This document shows positions 4,889 to 11,082 of a DNA stretch of 64,000 nucleotides, one piece after another; the first letter of the stretch is position 1; each line of letters opens with the position of its first letter. Position numbers and translations under genes: made by a program. The DNA is from Bacteroidota bacterium (lineage in GTDB: Bacteria > Bacteroidota > Bacteroidia > CAILMK01 > JACPUW01), in NCBI GenBank assembly GCA_016192035.1, contig JACPUW010000023.1, positions 1-64,000 on the forward strand. Direction: 5' to 3'. Below the pieces are notes generated by a model, which was not told where the DNA came from, searched no databases, and saw only the letters and a program-made list of their open reading frames with translations.

Positions 4889-6147
4889 CAAGCCTTTAGC
4901 CACTTAAAGAGCCTGTCGCTTGGCCTCACTTTTTCTGGAACCGGCATGGAAAACACATCGCCCTTGCGCACCTTGTCCACGGGCTTGCCGTCCACCCGCA
5001 TTTCAGTTACCTGGTGGTAAATCACCCCTGTGGTGGGGCCGTTTATTACCACTTCATCGCCCACCGTCAGTTCCCCGGCCTCCAGTTCAAATTCACCTAC
5101 CCCCAGTTTATCAAAATACTTCACCCCCTTGCCCAGGTGCCACTTTCTGTGGCTCGCTTTTGAACCATAGGAATCGTTCCATTCGCCCATGGTTTTGCCC
5201 AGGTAGTAGCCCTCCCAAAACCCCCGGTTGAAAACCGTTTCCAACCGCGCATTCCAGTGCTTGATCTTTTCTTCGGAGTAGGTTCCATCTTTCAGAGAGT
5301 CAATAGCTTCTCTATAGCATTGGGTGCTTACGTGCACGTATTCGGGCGATCGGCCACGGCCCTCAATTTTAAGCACGGAAACACCGGCATCCAGCACTTG
5401 GTCCAGAAATCCGATGGTGCATAAGTCCTTGGCCGACATGATGTACTCATTGTCAATTTCCAGTTCATAGCCTTCTTCCTTGTCGGTTACCACATAGGAG
5501 CGGCGGCAATTCTGCACGCAGGCGCCCCGGTTGGCCGATGCTTGGTGGGTGTGTAGGCTTAGATAGCATTTTCCCGACACTGCCATGCACAGTGCGCCAT
5601 GGGCAAATACCTCAATTTGCACCAAATGTCCATTGGGCCCGGTAATCTTTCTTCGGGCAATTTCTTTGGTAATTTGTTTTACCTGCATGAGGCTCAGTTC
5701 GCGAGAGAGCACCATGGTATTGGCAAAGTGGGCATAAAATGCCACTGTTTCTACATTGGTAATATTTGCCTGCGTGGAAATATGCACCTCCATGCCCATT
5801 TGGTGGGCATACATGATGGCTGCGTGGTCGGCTGCTATGATGGCACTTATGCCCGCGTTTTTGGCCTTGTCCACTATGCTCTTCATCAAGCGCAGGTCAT
5901 GGTCATACAGTATGGTATTCAGTGTAATATAGGTTTTTATACCATACTCCATACCTATGGCGGCCACGTCTTCCAGATCGTTTAGGGTAAAATTCATAGT
6001 GCTTCGGGCCCTCATATTGAGTTGCTCCACACCGAAATACACCGAATTGGCCCCTGCTTTTACGGCAGCCATTAGGCTGTCGCGTCCACCTGCCGGAGAC
6101 ATGAGCTCTACACTTGATCTGATTCTCTGGGCTTGCTGCTCGGGCAT
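4888..6147 (-). CDS. U32 peptidase-family protein, TrhP/YegQ-like tRNA U34 hydroxylation factor
   Basis: 419 aa. The N-terminus reads VELMSPAGGRDSLMAAVKAGANSVYFG, the hallmark of U32 proteins, and the centre has the Cys-rich stretch SGKCYLSL...NRGACVQNCRRSY thought to hold an iron-sulfur cluster. EGRGRSPEYV matches the conserved U32 core. Despite the peptidase name, the E. coli and Bacillus members of this size (YegQ/TrhP) make 5-hydroxyuridine at tRNA position 34 and need prephenate. Length fits TrhP better than the larger rRNA enzyme RlhA. It overlaps a chorismate mutase gene by 40 nt upstream and a ferredoxin gene downstream, which supports the TrhP reading. Confidence 0.82.
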   Translation of the reverse strand: MPEQQAQRIRSSVELMSPAGGRDSLMAAVKAGANSVYFGVEQLNMRARSTMNFTLNDLEDVAAIGMEYGIKTYITLNTILYDHDLRLMKSIVDKAKNAGISAIIAADHAAIMYAHQMGMEVHISTQANITNVETVAFYAHFANTMVLSRELSLMQVKQITKEIARRKITGPNGHLVQIEVFAHGALCMAVSGKCYLSLHTHQASANRGACVQNCRRSYVVTDKEEGYELEIDNEYIMSAKDLCTIGFLDQVLDAGVSVLKIEGRGRSPEYVHVSTQCYREAIDSLKDGTYSEEKIKHWNARLETVFNRGFWEGYYLGKTMGEWNDSYGSKASHRKWHLGKGVKYFDKLGVGEFELEAGELTVGDEVVINGPTTGVIYHQVTEMRVDGKPVDKVRKGDVFSMPVPEKVRPSDRLFKWLKA

Positions 6148-6518
6148 GTTATCTGGTTTTGCACCTGCAAAGATTCTTGATGAATGCGTGTATAGATGTC
6201 TATTATCAAACCAGTGGGAAGCCCTAGTTGGCTGCCCAATAGACTCCTATTCACCAGAAGCCAAGCCAAACGATCTGATTGATAAGCGGGTAACCCCATG
6301 TCAATTTTTTGTTGCCCAATTTCCTTTACCAAGTCCATGCGCTGGGCCAGCAAGCCAAGAATTCCGCGGTCTAGTACATCAATTTGATTGCGAAGGTCTT
6401 CTATCCCTTTTTTCACCCTGGGTTTTAATTTTTCTGTAGAAGGTTTTGGCCGGTGCATGGACGGCAAAGGTATTTCATGCACAATAGGTGCCTTGCAATT
6501 GGCTGTTTCTGTCCTCAT
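6108..6518 (-). CDS. Chorismate mutase, AroQ type
   Basis: 136 aa, monofunctional. After a basic, proline-rich N-terminal extension of about 38 residues comes the AroQ helix IEDLRNQIDVLDRGILGLLAQRM, then LVKEIGQQK with the active-site Arg and Lys pattern of the family. It converts chorismate to prephenate. No DAHP synthase, prephenate dehydratase or dehydrogenase is nearby, so this is not a phenylalanine/tyrosine operon. Instead the gene overlaps the TrhP-like gene by 40 nt, suggesting that prephenate is supplied locally for tRNA hydroxylation. Divergently transcribed from the VTC gene. Confidence 0.85.
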   Translation of the reverse strand: MRTETANCKAPIVHEIPLPSMHRPKPSTEKLKPRVKKGIEDLRNQIDVLDRGILGLLAQRMDLVKEIGQQKIDMGLPAYQSDRLAWLLVNRSLLGSQLGLPTGLIIDIYTRIHQESLQVQNQITCPSSKPRESDQV

Positions 6519-6568: not shown

Positions 6569-6576
6569 TACTTTTG
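6569..6576 (+). promoter_or_regulatory. Bacteroidota -7 element TAcTTTTG for the VTC operon
   Basis: TACTTTTG followed by CC matches TAnnTTTG. It lies 15 nt upstream of the ATG at 6591, giving a very short leader. A TTG at 6537-6539 is 29 nt upstream, longer than the usual 17-23 nt spacer, so the -33 box is uncertain. Confidence 0.5.
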
Positions 6577-6590
6577 CCTGTTCCTTCGCT

Positions 6591-7346
6591 ATGGCTAATT
6601 GGCAGCACATAATCAATGGTTTACCCACTAGGCACTTGGCCGAAATGGGTGAGTCATTTCTACACCGTTATGACCGCAAATTTTTGGTTCGGCCCGGCAA
6701 TTTTGACTTGGTAGTACAAGCCATACCAATTGATTACCAGGTGATGCACAACGGGGTTTCTCACATTTCACAGTATGTTACCCAATACTTTGACACACCT
6801 GATTATAAACTATACCATGCACTGCACCGGGGCAAGTTGCCCCGGTATAAAGTGCGCAAGCGGCTATACAGGGATACCCTTACTGCCTTTTTGGAAGTGA
6901 AGGTGAAAAGCACCAAAGGAGATACCCAAAAACACAGGATGAAAACCGCAGCCTATGACCTAGACCTATTAAGTGGGGATGAGTTGCGATGGGTAGGAAC
7001 TTATGCGCTTGACAAGCAAAATTATGTGCCTACTTTGCGCACTGAGTTTAGCCGCTTGGCCTTGTGTGGCCCACTCATGTCAGAGCGATGGACCTTTGAT
7101 ATGGACATGGTATCGACCCAGCTAAGCACCGGACAACGTGCGGGCTACGGCGACCTGGTGATTGCGGAGCAAAAAACTTTGTTGGGGCAAAATGGGTCTC
7201 CATTAAAGGCCGCCATTGGTCCATTTTTAATTCCAATCAAAGGTTTTGGCAAGTATGGCACAGGCATGGCGCGTACCTTTCCGGGCCTTAAAAGTGGTTT
7301 AATAGCTGACAGATTGCGATATATAGACAAACTTATTGTACAATGA
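6591..7346 (+). CDS. VTC-domain (polyphosphate polymerase-fold) protein
   Basis: 251 aa from ATG 6591; a longer frame from 6453 was rejected because it overlaps the divergent chorismate mutase start. The triphosphate-tunnel motifs are present in order: RYDRKFLV, YFDTPDY, RYKVRKRLY with its basic cluster, FLEVKVK (LExK), TLRTEFSRLAL, WTFDMDM, LVIAEQKT and GFGKYGTGM. These Arg, Lys and Glu residues line the polyphosphate and metal tunnel in yeast Vtc4. The bacterial members pair with DUF4956 membrane proteins, as here (4-nt overlap with the next gene). Whether it makes polyphosphate is unproven. Confidence 0.85.
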   Translation: MANWQHIINGLPTRHLAEMGESFLHRYDRKFLVRPGNFDLVVQAIPIDYQVMHNGVSHISQYVTQYFDTPDYKLYHALHRGKLPRYKVRKRLYRDTLTAFLEVKVKSTKGDTQKHRMKTAAYDLDLLSGDELRWVGTYALDKQNYVPTLRTEFSRLALCGPLMSERWTFDMDMVSTQLSTGQRAGYGDLVIAEQKTLLGQNGSPLKAAIGPFLIPIKGFGKYGTGMARTFPGLKSGLIADRLRYIDKLIVQ

Positions 7347-7906
7347 ACTTGGTCATTCCATTTGCCCTATTAACCCTGGCACTCTTTGTTGTGGTGGGTC
7401 TTCTATACTACCGAAACACCAGAAACAAAGACTTCGTGTTTACGTATTTCATGATAGGGGTGGTGGTGTTTTTTATCTGTAAGGTGCTTAATTCCAGTAG
7501 TCCCGACATAGGCCTGGCCATTGGTTTATTTGCCATATTCGGTATCATCCGCTACCGCACCGACGCCATTCCCATTAGGGAAATGACCTATTTGTTTATT
7601 GTCATTGGGCTGTCGGTAGTCAATGCCTTTTGGCCTGAAGAACGCGGCATAGGCTTTCCTCAAATTTTTGCCAATGTTGCCATTGTAACTGCTGCGGCAA
7701 TAATGGAAACTTTTTCGAACCGTGGGCTTGGCAAAAAGAAAACCTTGATTTACGACAAATTGGAACTCTTGCATCCAGATAAGTTTGCATTGCTTCAAGA
7801 AGATGTGCAAGCCAGGACAGGTTTGGCAATTACTAAAGTGAACATTGTGCGCATAGACTTACTAAAGGAAATTGCGGAAATAACGGTGTACTATAGCAAG
7901 GAATAA
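7343..7906 (+). CDS. DUF4956 membrane protein
   Basis: 187 aa. Four probable transmembrane helices occupy about residues 1-115 (LVIPFALLTLALFVVVGLL, FTYFMIGVVVFFICK, IGLAIGLFAIFGIIRYR, YLFIVIGLSVVNAFW), followed by a cytosolic ferredoxin-like tail ending VNIVRIDLLKEIAEITVYY. The segment FGIIRYRTDAIPIREMTYLF is the DUF4956 signature. The ATG overlaps the VTC stop by 4 nt. Family function is unknown; the constant pairing with VTC-fold proteins suggests a two-part membrane complex. Confidence 0.85.
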   Translation: MNLVIPFALLTLALFVVVGLLYYRNTRNKDFVFTYFMIGVVVFFICKVLNSSSPDIGLAIGLFAIFGIIRYRTDAIPIREMTYLFIVIGLSVVNAFWPEERGIGFPQIFANVAIVTAAAIMETFSNRGLGKKKTLIYDKLELLHPDKFALLQEDVQARTGLAITKVNIVRIDLLKEIAEITVYYSKE

Positions 7907-7907
7907 A

Positions 7908-8618
7908 TTGTCAATCCATTGTGAAATAGGTGCTTTGTTTCGAAAATCCATATTATTGGCAATCCTTCTCCCAGCCTTGTTAAGTGGGCTGCAAGCGCAA
8001 GATTCACTGAATATTGGCGCCTGGGGCTCCTTGGCCATTTCAACTAAGTTATTGCCAGGGCTTAAGATTAGCCTAGAGGCAGCGGCAAGGACCGGATTCC
8101 AACCCCAAGACCATACTTTTTTTGGACAATTTGGGGCTAAATGGCAGCTAACCAAACATATATATCTTAGCCCCCGACTGCGGGTGGGTTATCTTTATGG
8201 CCCTACGGTGTTCCAACGTTGGTTTGTGGCATTGGGTCATTCATTTGAACCTGAAAGGTTTACCATCACTTCGCGGCTGGCTTTTCAGTACCGGGTATCG
8301 CACTATACTGACTTTGATGTGCACATGCACCGCGACCACTGGCGGTGGCGCAGCGGCTTGGGGTATGATATACCTCACTGGAAGGCAGATCCTGAGGTTG
8401 AAATTGAGTTATTTGCCAAATTGAACCGGCGCCAGCCAGTGGAAATGGACCTTCTAAGGGTGAAACTGGGTACTGAGCTCAGCCTGTATGACCACCTGGA
8501 TGGAAAACTTTTCACCCTGTGGGACCTAGACCCCAGTTCTGGGTTTGGCCTGGATAGGCTGGTACTGGGTTTTGAATTGGGCTATAAACTTGCCCGTAAG
8601 GCCAAAACGGAGAGCTAA
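7908..8618 (+). CDS. DUF2490-like outer-membrane barrel protein
   Basis: About 230 aa with signal peptide FRKSILLAILLPALLSGLQAQ. The mature part resembles DUF2490 proteins: NIGAWGSLAISTKLLPGLKISLEAAARTG, FFGQFGAKWQLTKHIYLSPRLRVGYLYG, and repeated aromatic-ended strands. No ATG is in frame; TTG at 7908 directly after the DUF4956 stop, or TTG at 7935 just before the signal peptide, are the candidate starts. Probably an outer-membrane barrel made with the VTC/DUF4956 pair. Confidence 0.72.
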   Translation: MSIHCEIGALFRKSILLAILLPALLSGLQAQDSLNIGAWGSLAISTKLLPGLKISLEAAARTGFQPQDHTFFGQFGAKWQLTKHIYLSPRLRVGYLYGPTVFQRWFVALGHSFEPERFTITSRLAFQYRVSHYTDFDVHMHRDHWRWRSGLGYDIPHWKADPEVEIELFAKLNRRQPVEMDLLRVKLGTELSLYDHLDGKLFTLWDLDPSSGFGLDRLVLGFELGYKLARKAKTES

Positions 8619-8622
8619 TGTC

Positions 8623-11082
8623 ATGAACAGACCCGCTTTACATAACACAGTATGTGTTTGTTGCATCATGCTGGCATCCTTACTACACACCTACGGGCAA
8701 GCAACCACAGTGATGGTGGGCCAGGTAAGCGATTTGTCATCCGGAAGGCCAATTTCAGGAGCAGAAATCCGGGTTAAGGGAACAGGCCATATGGCGCACA
8801 GCAACAGCGATGGCTGGTACCGGTTAACTATACAAGGTACAGGGAATGCCCTGGATTCCTTTGGGTTTGTTGGGCATGTATTGGTTTGGGATTCATTGGA
8901 AATGATGGAGTTGCAGATTTGGTCACTAAAGGGCCAATTGGTATATGAAGGGAATTTGACCGGTGGGCCAGGCCTGTGGTGCCTTCCAAACATGCATAGC
9001 GGTGTTTATCTGCTGGTTATTTCATACGGTGGCCAGCACTACCCCTTGATGGCCGCATCACTGGGCAATGAACTAATGATCGTGCAGCCATCGGCGCCCT
9101 TTATCCGGGCCCAAACAGACTTGACCGATACTATAGAAGTCCGTGCCCAGGGCTACAATACCAGGTATTTGGCCAGGACTAGGGCTACCGGTACCCAGCA
9201 TGTAAAATTGCTGCCACAAGGTGCCAAATACCTAGACTATCTCCCCGAACTGTTTGATACCACCGACTATGGCCTGCTGGCGGGTGCGCCTTCACGTTCA
9301 CTGCTCGGACAAGTAGCGTCCATAAAGGTGGTGTATGATTTTGATCGAGGGCTCATGTACTATATTAATGCCAACAAGTATCAATTACACTATGATTTCT
9401 GCAAGGAGGTACTTGGCTATGATCAAGGAATCTATAGGTTTAACCTAACTCAATATCCCCGCTCGGCAGAACGCATGTACTACTTGGGCGATCTAAACTA
9501 TTACCGCGACCTGGACAGGTTTGTGTTTCAGTTTGTGGCGAGCAATGAGTTTGGATGTGGTGAGATAGCAGATTTTTTTGCGGCCATCAAAGCCACATCT
9601 TTCTTTGCCAATCGACTGGTTTTCTACTCGATAAAGCAAGAATGGGATAACTGTGCCCAGATAGGCTATATAGATACGGAAACACTATATGGAGGACAGA
9701 ACTACCTGGGGCTCAATACAGGTTTTGCCTATGGCTACCTTAGGGTAGTGCAGCCCTTTGAATTGCCCAGTACGTATTTAAGCAAGCGCGATATAGTGGT
9801 TTACAATGGTTTGCCGAACGACATGCCGGTAGTGGCTGGCCTGGTTACCACTGAATTTCAGACCCCATTGAGCCACATCAATATACTTAGCCACAGCCGG
9901 GGCACGCCCAATATGACTTTGCGGAATGCCTTGGAAAATCCCCAAGTGATGGGCAAACTGGGCCAATTGGTATATCTGGAGGTAACAAACAATGACTATG
10001 TGTTGCGCAAGGCCAATTTGGCTGAAGCTGAGGTATTTTGGGCAAGCAAGGAGCCAAAAGGCACGGCAGTGCCGGCTTTTGACCTGTCAGTTTCAGGCCT
10101 GGTAGATCTGAATAAAGCCAACTACCGGCACGTGGGCACCATAGGTTCAAAGGCTGCCAATTTTGCCGAAATGATGAAGGTGCGCATGGACCATGGCACC
10201 GTCCCCCTGCCCGAAATGGCGTTTGCCATTCCTTTTTATTACTACCAACAGCATTTGGTGCGCCACGGCATAGATAAGGCCATCAATCAGGCGCTACAGT
10301 CACAGGCATTTAGGCAAAAACCCAGTTTCCGCCAAAAAAGATTGGCCCAACTGCGCGATACCATCATTGCCACGGAGCTTGACCCAGGGTTGCGCCAAGC
10401 GGTGATGGATAAAATGGGAAATTATTTGGTTTTCAAACGGTTCCGTTTTAGATCATCTACCAATGCGGAAGATTTGAACGGTTTTTCAGGTGCGGGGCTC
10501 TATTCATCGGCCACGGCCCAGGCCCATGATGCGGACCAAACCGCTGACTGGGCCATAAAAAGCGTTTGGGCAGGGCTGTGGAATTGGCGGGCATTTGAGG
10601 AAAGATCTTATTACGGCATTGATCATGGGCAATGTATGATGGGTGTGTTGGTGCACCGTGCTTTCCCTAGTGAAGATGCCAATGGGGTGCTCATAACCAC
10701 CAACTTATATAACGCCAATGATGGGATCATAATCAATGCCCAATACAGCGACCTGAGTATTGTGAGGCCCAGCCCTGGCCTTATCCATGAGCAAATTATG
10801 GTGTATAGATATGCTGTGGACCCACTATCAAAATATACCATAGAATACCTGAGTTTCTCCAATGCCCCTGGCCTAAAGTGGGAGACGGTGCTTACCAAGG
10901 GTGAAGTGACTGAATTAATGGATTATGCGCTGGCCATTAAAGCGCACTTTTACTATAATGTATTGCCTCAGTGCACATGCAGTTTGGAGGATTTTGCACT
11001 CGACATAGAATTTAAAGTGGACTCTGAAGTGAAAAACAGGAAGGTGTACGTAAAACAGGTGAGGCCCTATGGCCAGTATTAG
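8623..11082 (+). CDS. Secreted PEP/pyruvate-binding (dikinase-like) protein
   Basis: 819 aa from ATG 8623 (4 nt after the previous stop). Seen in order: signal peptide, about 1-26, ending TYGQ; a carboxypeptidase-regulatory-like domain, about 28-75 (GRPISGAEIRVKGTG); a segment like a T9SS sorting domain, about 95-145 (MHSGVYLLVIS); an unassigned middle; a PEP-utiliser phosphohistidine swivel domain, about 385-440, with the candidate phospho-accepting His418 in TPLSHINILSHSRGTPN; then a PPDK/PpsA-type ATP-grasp domain, about 503-815 (GTIGSKAANFAEM, RFRSSTNAEDL, DIEFKVD, KQVRPY). The swivel precedes the ATP-grasp domain, opposite to PEP synthase and like plant glucan, water dikinases. No PEP-binding TIM barrel is present. 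The substrate, and how ATP would be reached outside the cytoplasm, are unknown. Confidence 0.78.
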   Translation: MNRPALHNTVCVCCIMLASLLHTYGQATTVMVGQVSDLSSGRPISGAEIRVKGTGHMAHSNSDGWYRLTIQGTGNALDSFGFVGHVLVWDSLEMMELQIWSLKGQLVYEGNLTGGPGLWCLPNMHSGVYLLVISYGGQHYPLMAASLGNELMIVQPSAPFIRAQTDLTDTIEVRAQGYNTRYLARTRATGTQHVKLLPQGAKYLDYLPELFDTTDYGLLAGAPSRSLLGQVASIKVVYDFDRGLMYYINANKYQLHYDFCKEVLGYDQGIYRFNLTQYPRSAERMYYLGDLNYYRDLDRFVFQFVASNEFGCGEIADFFAAIKATSFFANRLVFYSIKQEWDNCAQIGYIDTETLYGGQNYLGLNTGFAYGYLRVVQPFELPSTYLSKRDIVVYNGLPNDMPVVAGLVTTEFQTPLSHINILSHSRGTPNMTLRNALENPQVMGKLGQLVYLEVTNNDYVLRKANLAEAEVFWASKEPKGTAVPAFDLSVSGLVDLNKANYRHVGTIGSKAANFAEMMKVRMDHGTVPLPEMAFAIPFYYYQQHLVRHGIDKAINQALQSQAFRQKPSFRQKRLAQLRDTIIATELDPGLRQAVMDKMGNYLVFKRFRFRSSTNAEDLNGFSGAGLYSSATAQAHDADQTADWAIKSVWAGLWNWRAFEERSYYGIDHGQCMMGVLVHRAFPSEDANGVLITTNLYNANDGIIINAQYSDLSIVRPSPGLIHEQIMVYRYAVDPLSKYTIEYLSFSNAPGLKWETVLTKGEVTELMDYALAIKAHFYYNVLPQCTCSLEDFALDIEFKVDSEVKNRKVYVKQVRPYGQY

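Follow-up and report, generated by a model that had tools for sequence, protein, structure and literature searches.

What the VTC/DUF4956 module does is a poorly understood matter, although the grouping of VTC, DUF4956, and CotH genes is already known. In the window (the whole stretch of 64,000 nucleotides analyzed here), the module shares an operon with a predicted exported enzyme of another kind, a GWD-like dikinase. The question raised by this locus is what such an enzyme would gain from VTC and DUF4956. We found no description of this pairing in the literature searched, which dealt with DUF4956, bacterial GWD, and CotH with VTC and had most subscription journals outside its scope. Reading from sequence, we propose that the function is likely extracytoplasmic phosphorylation served by the VTC/DUF4956 module.

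Four genes form one transcription-unit-like block

The operon comprises four genes on the plus strand that encode, from 5' to 3', the VTC protein, DUF4956, a DUF2490 barrel, and the dikinase-like protein (Table 1). VTC and DUF4956 overlap by 4 nt, and the two gaps that follow measure 1 nt and 4 nt. This tight spacing argues for a single transcription unit. An earlier note on this DNA had described the block with these spacings as one four-gene unit, which gene coordinates and Pfam matches confirm at this locus. The note had also placed a -7 element ahead of the first gene. The sequence TACTTTTG is indeed present, but it is weak evidence: the window contains 29 copies of the pattern TANNTTTG, whereas chance predicts 49, so the motif by itself is no proof of a promoter. 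On the minus strand, a divergent upstream ORF (6108-6518) has what looks by eye like a chorismate mutase-like domain.

Table 1. Genes of the operon and the candidate element upstream
Feature	Position	Strand	Length	Evidence and properties
Candidate Bacteroidota -7 element TACTTTTG	6569-6576	+		Pattern TANNTTTG; 14 nt before the VTC ATG; weak evidence
VTC-domain protein	6591-7346	+	251 aa	PF09359, E 6e-18; predicted cytosolic triphosphate-tunnel fold
DUF4956 membrane protein	7343-7906	+	187 aa	PF16316, E 6e-45; 5 predicted TM helices, C-terminal alpha/beta domain
DUF2490 predicted outer-membrane beta-barrel	7908-8618	+	236 aa	PF10677, E 5e-12; TTG start
GWD-like dikinase (P0004)	8623-11082	+	819 aa	PF01326 PPDK_N, E 6e-24, residues 506-816; predicted exported

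The VTC protein retains its tunnel residues, and DUF4956 matches no known channel fold

In an alignment of 15 VTC sequences, K30, R85, K87, R89, R91, E102, K104, K106, K114, R116, R155, E193, and K195 were invariant, and the family profile matched yeast Vtc4 (3g3q, E 2e-6). Together with the PF09359 match, this identifies a VTC/TTM domain that has the tunnel Lys and Arg residues and the metal-binding Glu. Such strict conservation of the tunnel fits a catalytic protein. In yeast, the VTC complex links the synthesis of polyphosphate to its passage across the membrane (PMC9911596).

The AF2 model of DUF4956 (pLDDT 74) agrees with five TM helices followed by a small alpha/beta domain, and the invariant R70, R72, and T73 form an RxRT segment between helices 3 and 4. 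A fold search of the model against the PDB gave no significant match and no known channel fold; the C-terminal domain showed a weak, nonsignificant resemblance to ACT-type regulatory domains. The DUF2490 barrel has a signal-like N-terminus, as read from its sequence. For Bacteroides thetaiotaomicron, a table of iron-dependent genes (PMC10434189) lists a DUF4956-DUF2490 pair (BT3498-BT3499) jointly, with a change of -7.6, so the two are probably co-expressed there.

A regulatory domain of the ACT type would suit an alternative in which VTC/DUF4956 works on the acceptor or in signalling. The module would sense phosphate or bind polyphosphate and regulate how a surface polymer is exported or assembled, and CotH or the dikinase would phosphorylate that polymer with leaked or released nucleotide. 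The location of CotH-VTC-DUF4956 beside Pel exopolysaccharide genes, to which they are accessory at Gram-positive loci (PMC7112168), points the same way. However, the strictly conserved tunnel residues fit catalysis, and we saw no polysaccharide synthase among the genes of the window operon. We consider this alternative unlikely.

The fourth gene encodes a GWD-like dikinase

The dikinase begins with a signal-like N-terminus, read from the sequence and modeled as a hydrophobic helix at residues 5 to 23. Two beta-sandwiches follow, one TTR/carboxypeptidase-regulatory-like and one T9SS-tail-like; no Pfam starch- or glucan-binding module was found in the protein. A middle domain (about 205-370) is conserved and has no Pfam match. 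Then come a phosphohistidine domain with the motif QTPLSHINILSHSRGTPN (H418) and an ATP-grasp domain (about 500-816), after which there is no further domain.

Among 27 dikinases from Bacteroidota, Myxococcota, and Fibrobacterota, H418, K510, R608, R610, E616, D617, D794, E796, Q812, and R814 were invariant. Alignment to PEP synthases equated K510 with the GGK motif, R610 with RSS, D794 and E796 with DIE, and Q812 and R814 with QxR. The earlier note had made its case depend on the Mg-ATP ligands; at the level of sequence, both the ATP-grasp motifs and the His motif are preserved. When the AF2 model (pLDDT 85.7) was searched with Foldseek, it matched the ATP domain of rifampin phosphotransferase (5hv6_A, TMt 0.76, E 4e-12) and also PEP synthase.

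PEP synthases are built from an N-terminal ATP-grasp, then a His domain, then a PEP/pyruvate barrel, and in plant GWD and PWD, a C-terminal PPDK_N-type ATP-grasp comes after the phosphohistidine domain. The protein was first described as a PEP-synthase-type enzyme. An exported-type protein with ATP-grasp and phosphohistidine domains is what we found, but the order is that of GWD, with H418 ahead of the ATP-grasp. We ruled out a PEP synthase or pyruvate dikinase, since the domain order is reversed and the PEP barrel is missing. The GWD1_pHisD profile (PF22973) matched 5 of the 27 relatives at E values up to 5 (best, 6e-4), and P0004 itself was unmatched.

The dikinase stands in the CotH slot

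Across Bacteroidia, the usual layout is VTC-DUF4956-DUF2490, often with CotH. We surveyed 66 VTC-DUF4956 loci from many Bacteroidia families and found DUF2490 within 6 kb in 52 and CotH in at least 27, the latter being a lower bound set by a strict home-made profile. VTC lay within 6 kb of DUF4956 in all 66 surveyed loci with DUF4956, some of which had been picked by VTC position; in the window, DUF4956 directly follows VTC. Among 395 Bacteroidia-class genomes, CotH was present in 199 of the 209 with DUF4956 versus 31 of the 186 without it. Both the genome counts and the many loci with CotH in or beside them bear out the association of VTC/DUF4956 with CotH that the earlier note had mentioned. 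In several CotH proteins, a T9SS sorting tail suggests a cell-surface location.

Genome G002, which belongs to the same family as the window genome, has VTC-DUF4956-DUF2490-CotH with 1-nt gaps (L166). Judged by gene order, the window dikinase occupies the CotH slot of this operon, the place that had been supposed for it. CotH is absent from the window operon, and the only CotH of the window genome lies on another contig (G000:C8).

Other arrangements were observed around these genes. Many Bacteroidia operons have a conserved putative lipoprotein of about 130 aa just before VTC (e.g., L167, 1688-2074), which is absent in the window; the carboxypeptidase-regulatory-like N-terminal domain of the window dikinase may belong to a similar fold class. 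G327 has a divergent form of the group (L266, 2891-8021) in which one strand encodes a DUF4956 from a different subfamily, a CotH of 977 aa that includes a beta-helix region, an ORF, and VTC. In G220 and G025 (L260, 5839-7442; L261, 6763-9871), DUF4956 occurs without VTC in the locus read and is next to two exported proteins, one of 341 aa and one a calcineurin-like/purple-acid-type phosphoesterase. These neighbors could be a third kind of DUF4956 partner.

Linkage is scattered, and co-occurrence is complete in the Bacteroidia sample

The majority of dikinase genes are not linked to VTC/DUF4956. The proposal that the four genes are kept together in related genomes therefore failed for most relatives, and we discarded a stable four-gene unit across relatives because only some are linked. 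Linked loci were nevertheless found in several clades. Four Kofleriaceae-type loci (L071, L073, L088, and L096) read VTC-DUF4956-dikinase with an exported lipoprotein of about 230 aa before the dikinase; in the fifth such locus, L081, the dikinase is transcribed divergently from the rest. Flavipsychrobacter has dikinase-VTC-DUF4956 (L075), and in Chryseobacterium, G085, and G110, the dikinase and DUF4956 genes converge. A tree of 101 dikinases requires no fewer than eight changes in the linked state. By this tree and these gene orders, physical linkage arose repeatedly, in Myxococcota, Flavipsychrobacter, and Chryseobacterium and its kin.

We called the dikinase at 300 bits or more in the 395 Bacteroidia-class genomes and found it in 21, from 20 genera. 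Despite the poor linkage, every one of these 21 had DUF4956, compared with 209 of 395 overall (hypergeometric p 9.5e-7); 18 had VTC (p 2e-4), both values ignoring shared ancestry, and 19 had CotH. Two control groups in the same sample behaved otherwise. DUF4956 accompanied the long PEPS-like exported proteins in 3 of 9 cases, which is no enrichment, and other PPDK_N proteins in 24 of 48, which is chance level. The former, proteins of about 1000 aa (L005 and L006), had been candidate members of the system and were excluded on this count. They and similar matches (L005, 1-3009; L006, 329-3232) form a separate exported PEP-synthase-like family in Bacteroidia with the His domain before the ATP-grasp. 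A Saprospiraceae bin (L028, 7971-14257) has two adjoining dikinase-family genes of 824 and 1237 aa on opposite strands.

Could the dikinase be a mere neighbor, joined to the operon by a recent chance fusion, with co-occurrence that stems from lineage or genome size? The many unlinked genes would suit this, as would the partial co-occurrence elsewhere: in 50 further dikinase genomes, many of them metagenome bins, DUF4956 was above the cutoff in 37, and the background in sampled Myxococcota was 53 of 113. The independent linkages in several clades, the exact use of the CotH slot in L166, and the chance-level result for related PPDK_N proteins all speak against it, and we regard a chance neighbor as very improbable.

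Three dikinase genomes in the Bacteroidia sample (G085, G110, and G230) keep DUF4956 and lack VTC, so VTC-made polyphosphate cannot be required in all cases, and the minimal unit may consist of DUF4956 and the dikinase. G085 and G110 also belong to the ten DUF4956 genomes that lack CotH, and their dikinase lies directly beside DUF4956 (L177 and L178). The retention of dikinase and DUF4956 without VTC also favors a role of the module in signalling or on the acceptor.

A proposed donor supply across the envelope

CotH and the GWD-like dikinase are unrelated, and they interchange in one operon slot. The shared module should therefore serve a step common to both, which suggests the donor side. Supplying a donor is the more economical common denominator, with a shared acceptor as the main rival. 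Whether the operon is an envelope phosphorylation system in which VTC/DUF4956 supplies a donor to the dikinase is, on the sequence evidence, an evenly balanced proposition. In such a system, VTC would convert cytosolic ATP into a high-energy phosphate, polyphosphate being the most likely product, and DUF4956 would carry that phosphate, or a nucleotide made with it, over the inner membrane. The DUF2490 barrel could give passage through the outer membrane to donor or substrate. The dikinase would take up a phosphoryl group on H418, with a nucleoside triphosphate or something equivalent as donor, and hand it on to a hydroxyl on an extracytoplasmic or surface polymer, most likely a glycan. Polyphosphate or a nucleotide as the donor, and a glycan or a protein as the acceptor, are both inferred. 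The intact motifs of VTC and dikinase, the recurrent linkage, the co-occurrence with DUF4956, and the presence of CotH with VTC and DUF4956 at Pel loci (PMC7112168) speak for the proposal. ATP-grasp enzymes use nucleotides and not polyphosphate, so a periplasmic nucleotide source would still be needed, which counts against the proposal. So do the many unlinked dikinase genes, the partial co-occurrence with DUF4956 in the 50 further genomes, the three dikinase genomes that lack VTC, and the failure of DUF4956 to match a known channel fold.

Another explanation would be phosphate storage or scavenging. VTC-DUF4956 would store polyphosphate on the outer side of the inner membrane, and its phosphate would be recycled or fixed, with no dedicated substrate, by the dikinase, by CotH, or by neighboring phosphatases. 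Some neighbors would agree with this: in L073, a Porin_O_P gene follows the dikinase; in L072, VTC adjoins a Na/Pi cotransporter; and in L260 and L261, the exported metallophosphoesterase is two genes from DUF4956. Yet such phosphate-linked neighbors were rare among the loci read, and a His-relay dikinase is a costly route to store phosphate, which makes this explanation improbable.

Returning to donor supply, we tentatively suggest its most general form, which is possible but somewhat unlikely: VTC-DUF4956-DUF2490 could be a trans-envelope phosphoryl-donor line, carrying polyphosphate or regenerated nucleotide, that powers an interchangeable exported CotH or GWD-like dikinase on surface polymers. 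If true, this would explain how ATP-type kinases work outside the bacterial cytoplasm, and two unrelated exported phosphotransferases on one module offer a handle on that use of ATP-type donors. Taken together, our data suggest that bacteria use a VTC/DUF4956 module to drive phosphorylation outside the cytoplasm and that starch-dikinase-like chemistry occurs on bacterial surfaces, and they give DUF4956, an uncharacterized family, a testable role.

Comparison with known systems

Like Vtc4 of the eukaryotic VTC complex, the window VTC (TTM) domain keeps the basic tunnel and catalytic residues, and it has a membrane partner likely to carry its product. Unlike that complex, it has no SPX domain, and DUF4956 replaces the VTC-type transmembrane domain.

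With the VTC-DUF4956-CotH group, the window operon shares the VTC and DUF4956 core plus an exported kinase and, with the Bacteroidia members, the DUF2490 barrel as well. It differs in having a GWD-like His-relay dikinase as its exported kinase, where the group has CotH, and, in contrast to the Gram-positive Pel loci, the operon has no Pel genes.

In its ATP-grasp, the dikinase shares the K, R, DIE, and QxR motifs of PEP synthase, pyruvate phosphate dikinase, and rifampin phosphotransferase, and like them it has a swivelling phosphohistidine domain. Unlike them, it is predicted to be exported, has the reverse domain order, and lacks both a PEP/pyruvate barrel and a rifampin-binding domain. Plant GWD1 and PWD resemble it in having the His domain before a C-terminal PPDK_N-type ATP-grasp and no PEP barrel. 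The Pfam match of the His domain to PF22973 is direct but weak and confined to 5 of the 27 relatives. In GWD, the His is loaded from the beta-phosphate of ATP, and glucan is then phosphorylated (PMC7569903). The window enzyme departs from the plant dikinases in being bacterial and predicted to be exported, with TTR-like and T9SS-tail-like beta-sandwiches in place of starch-binding domains.
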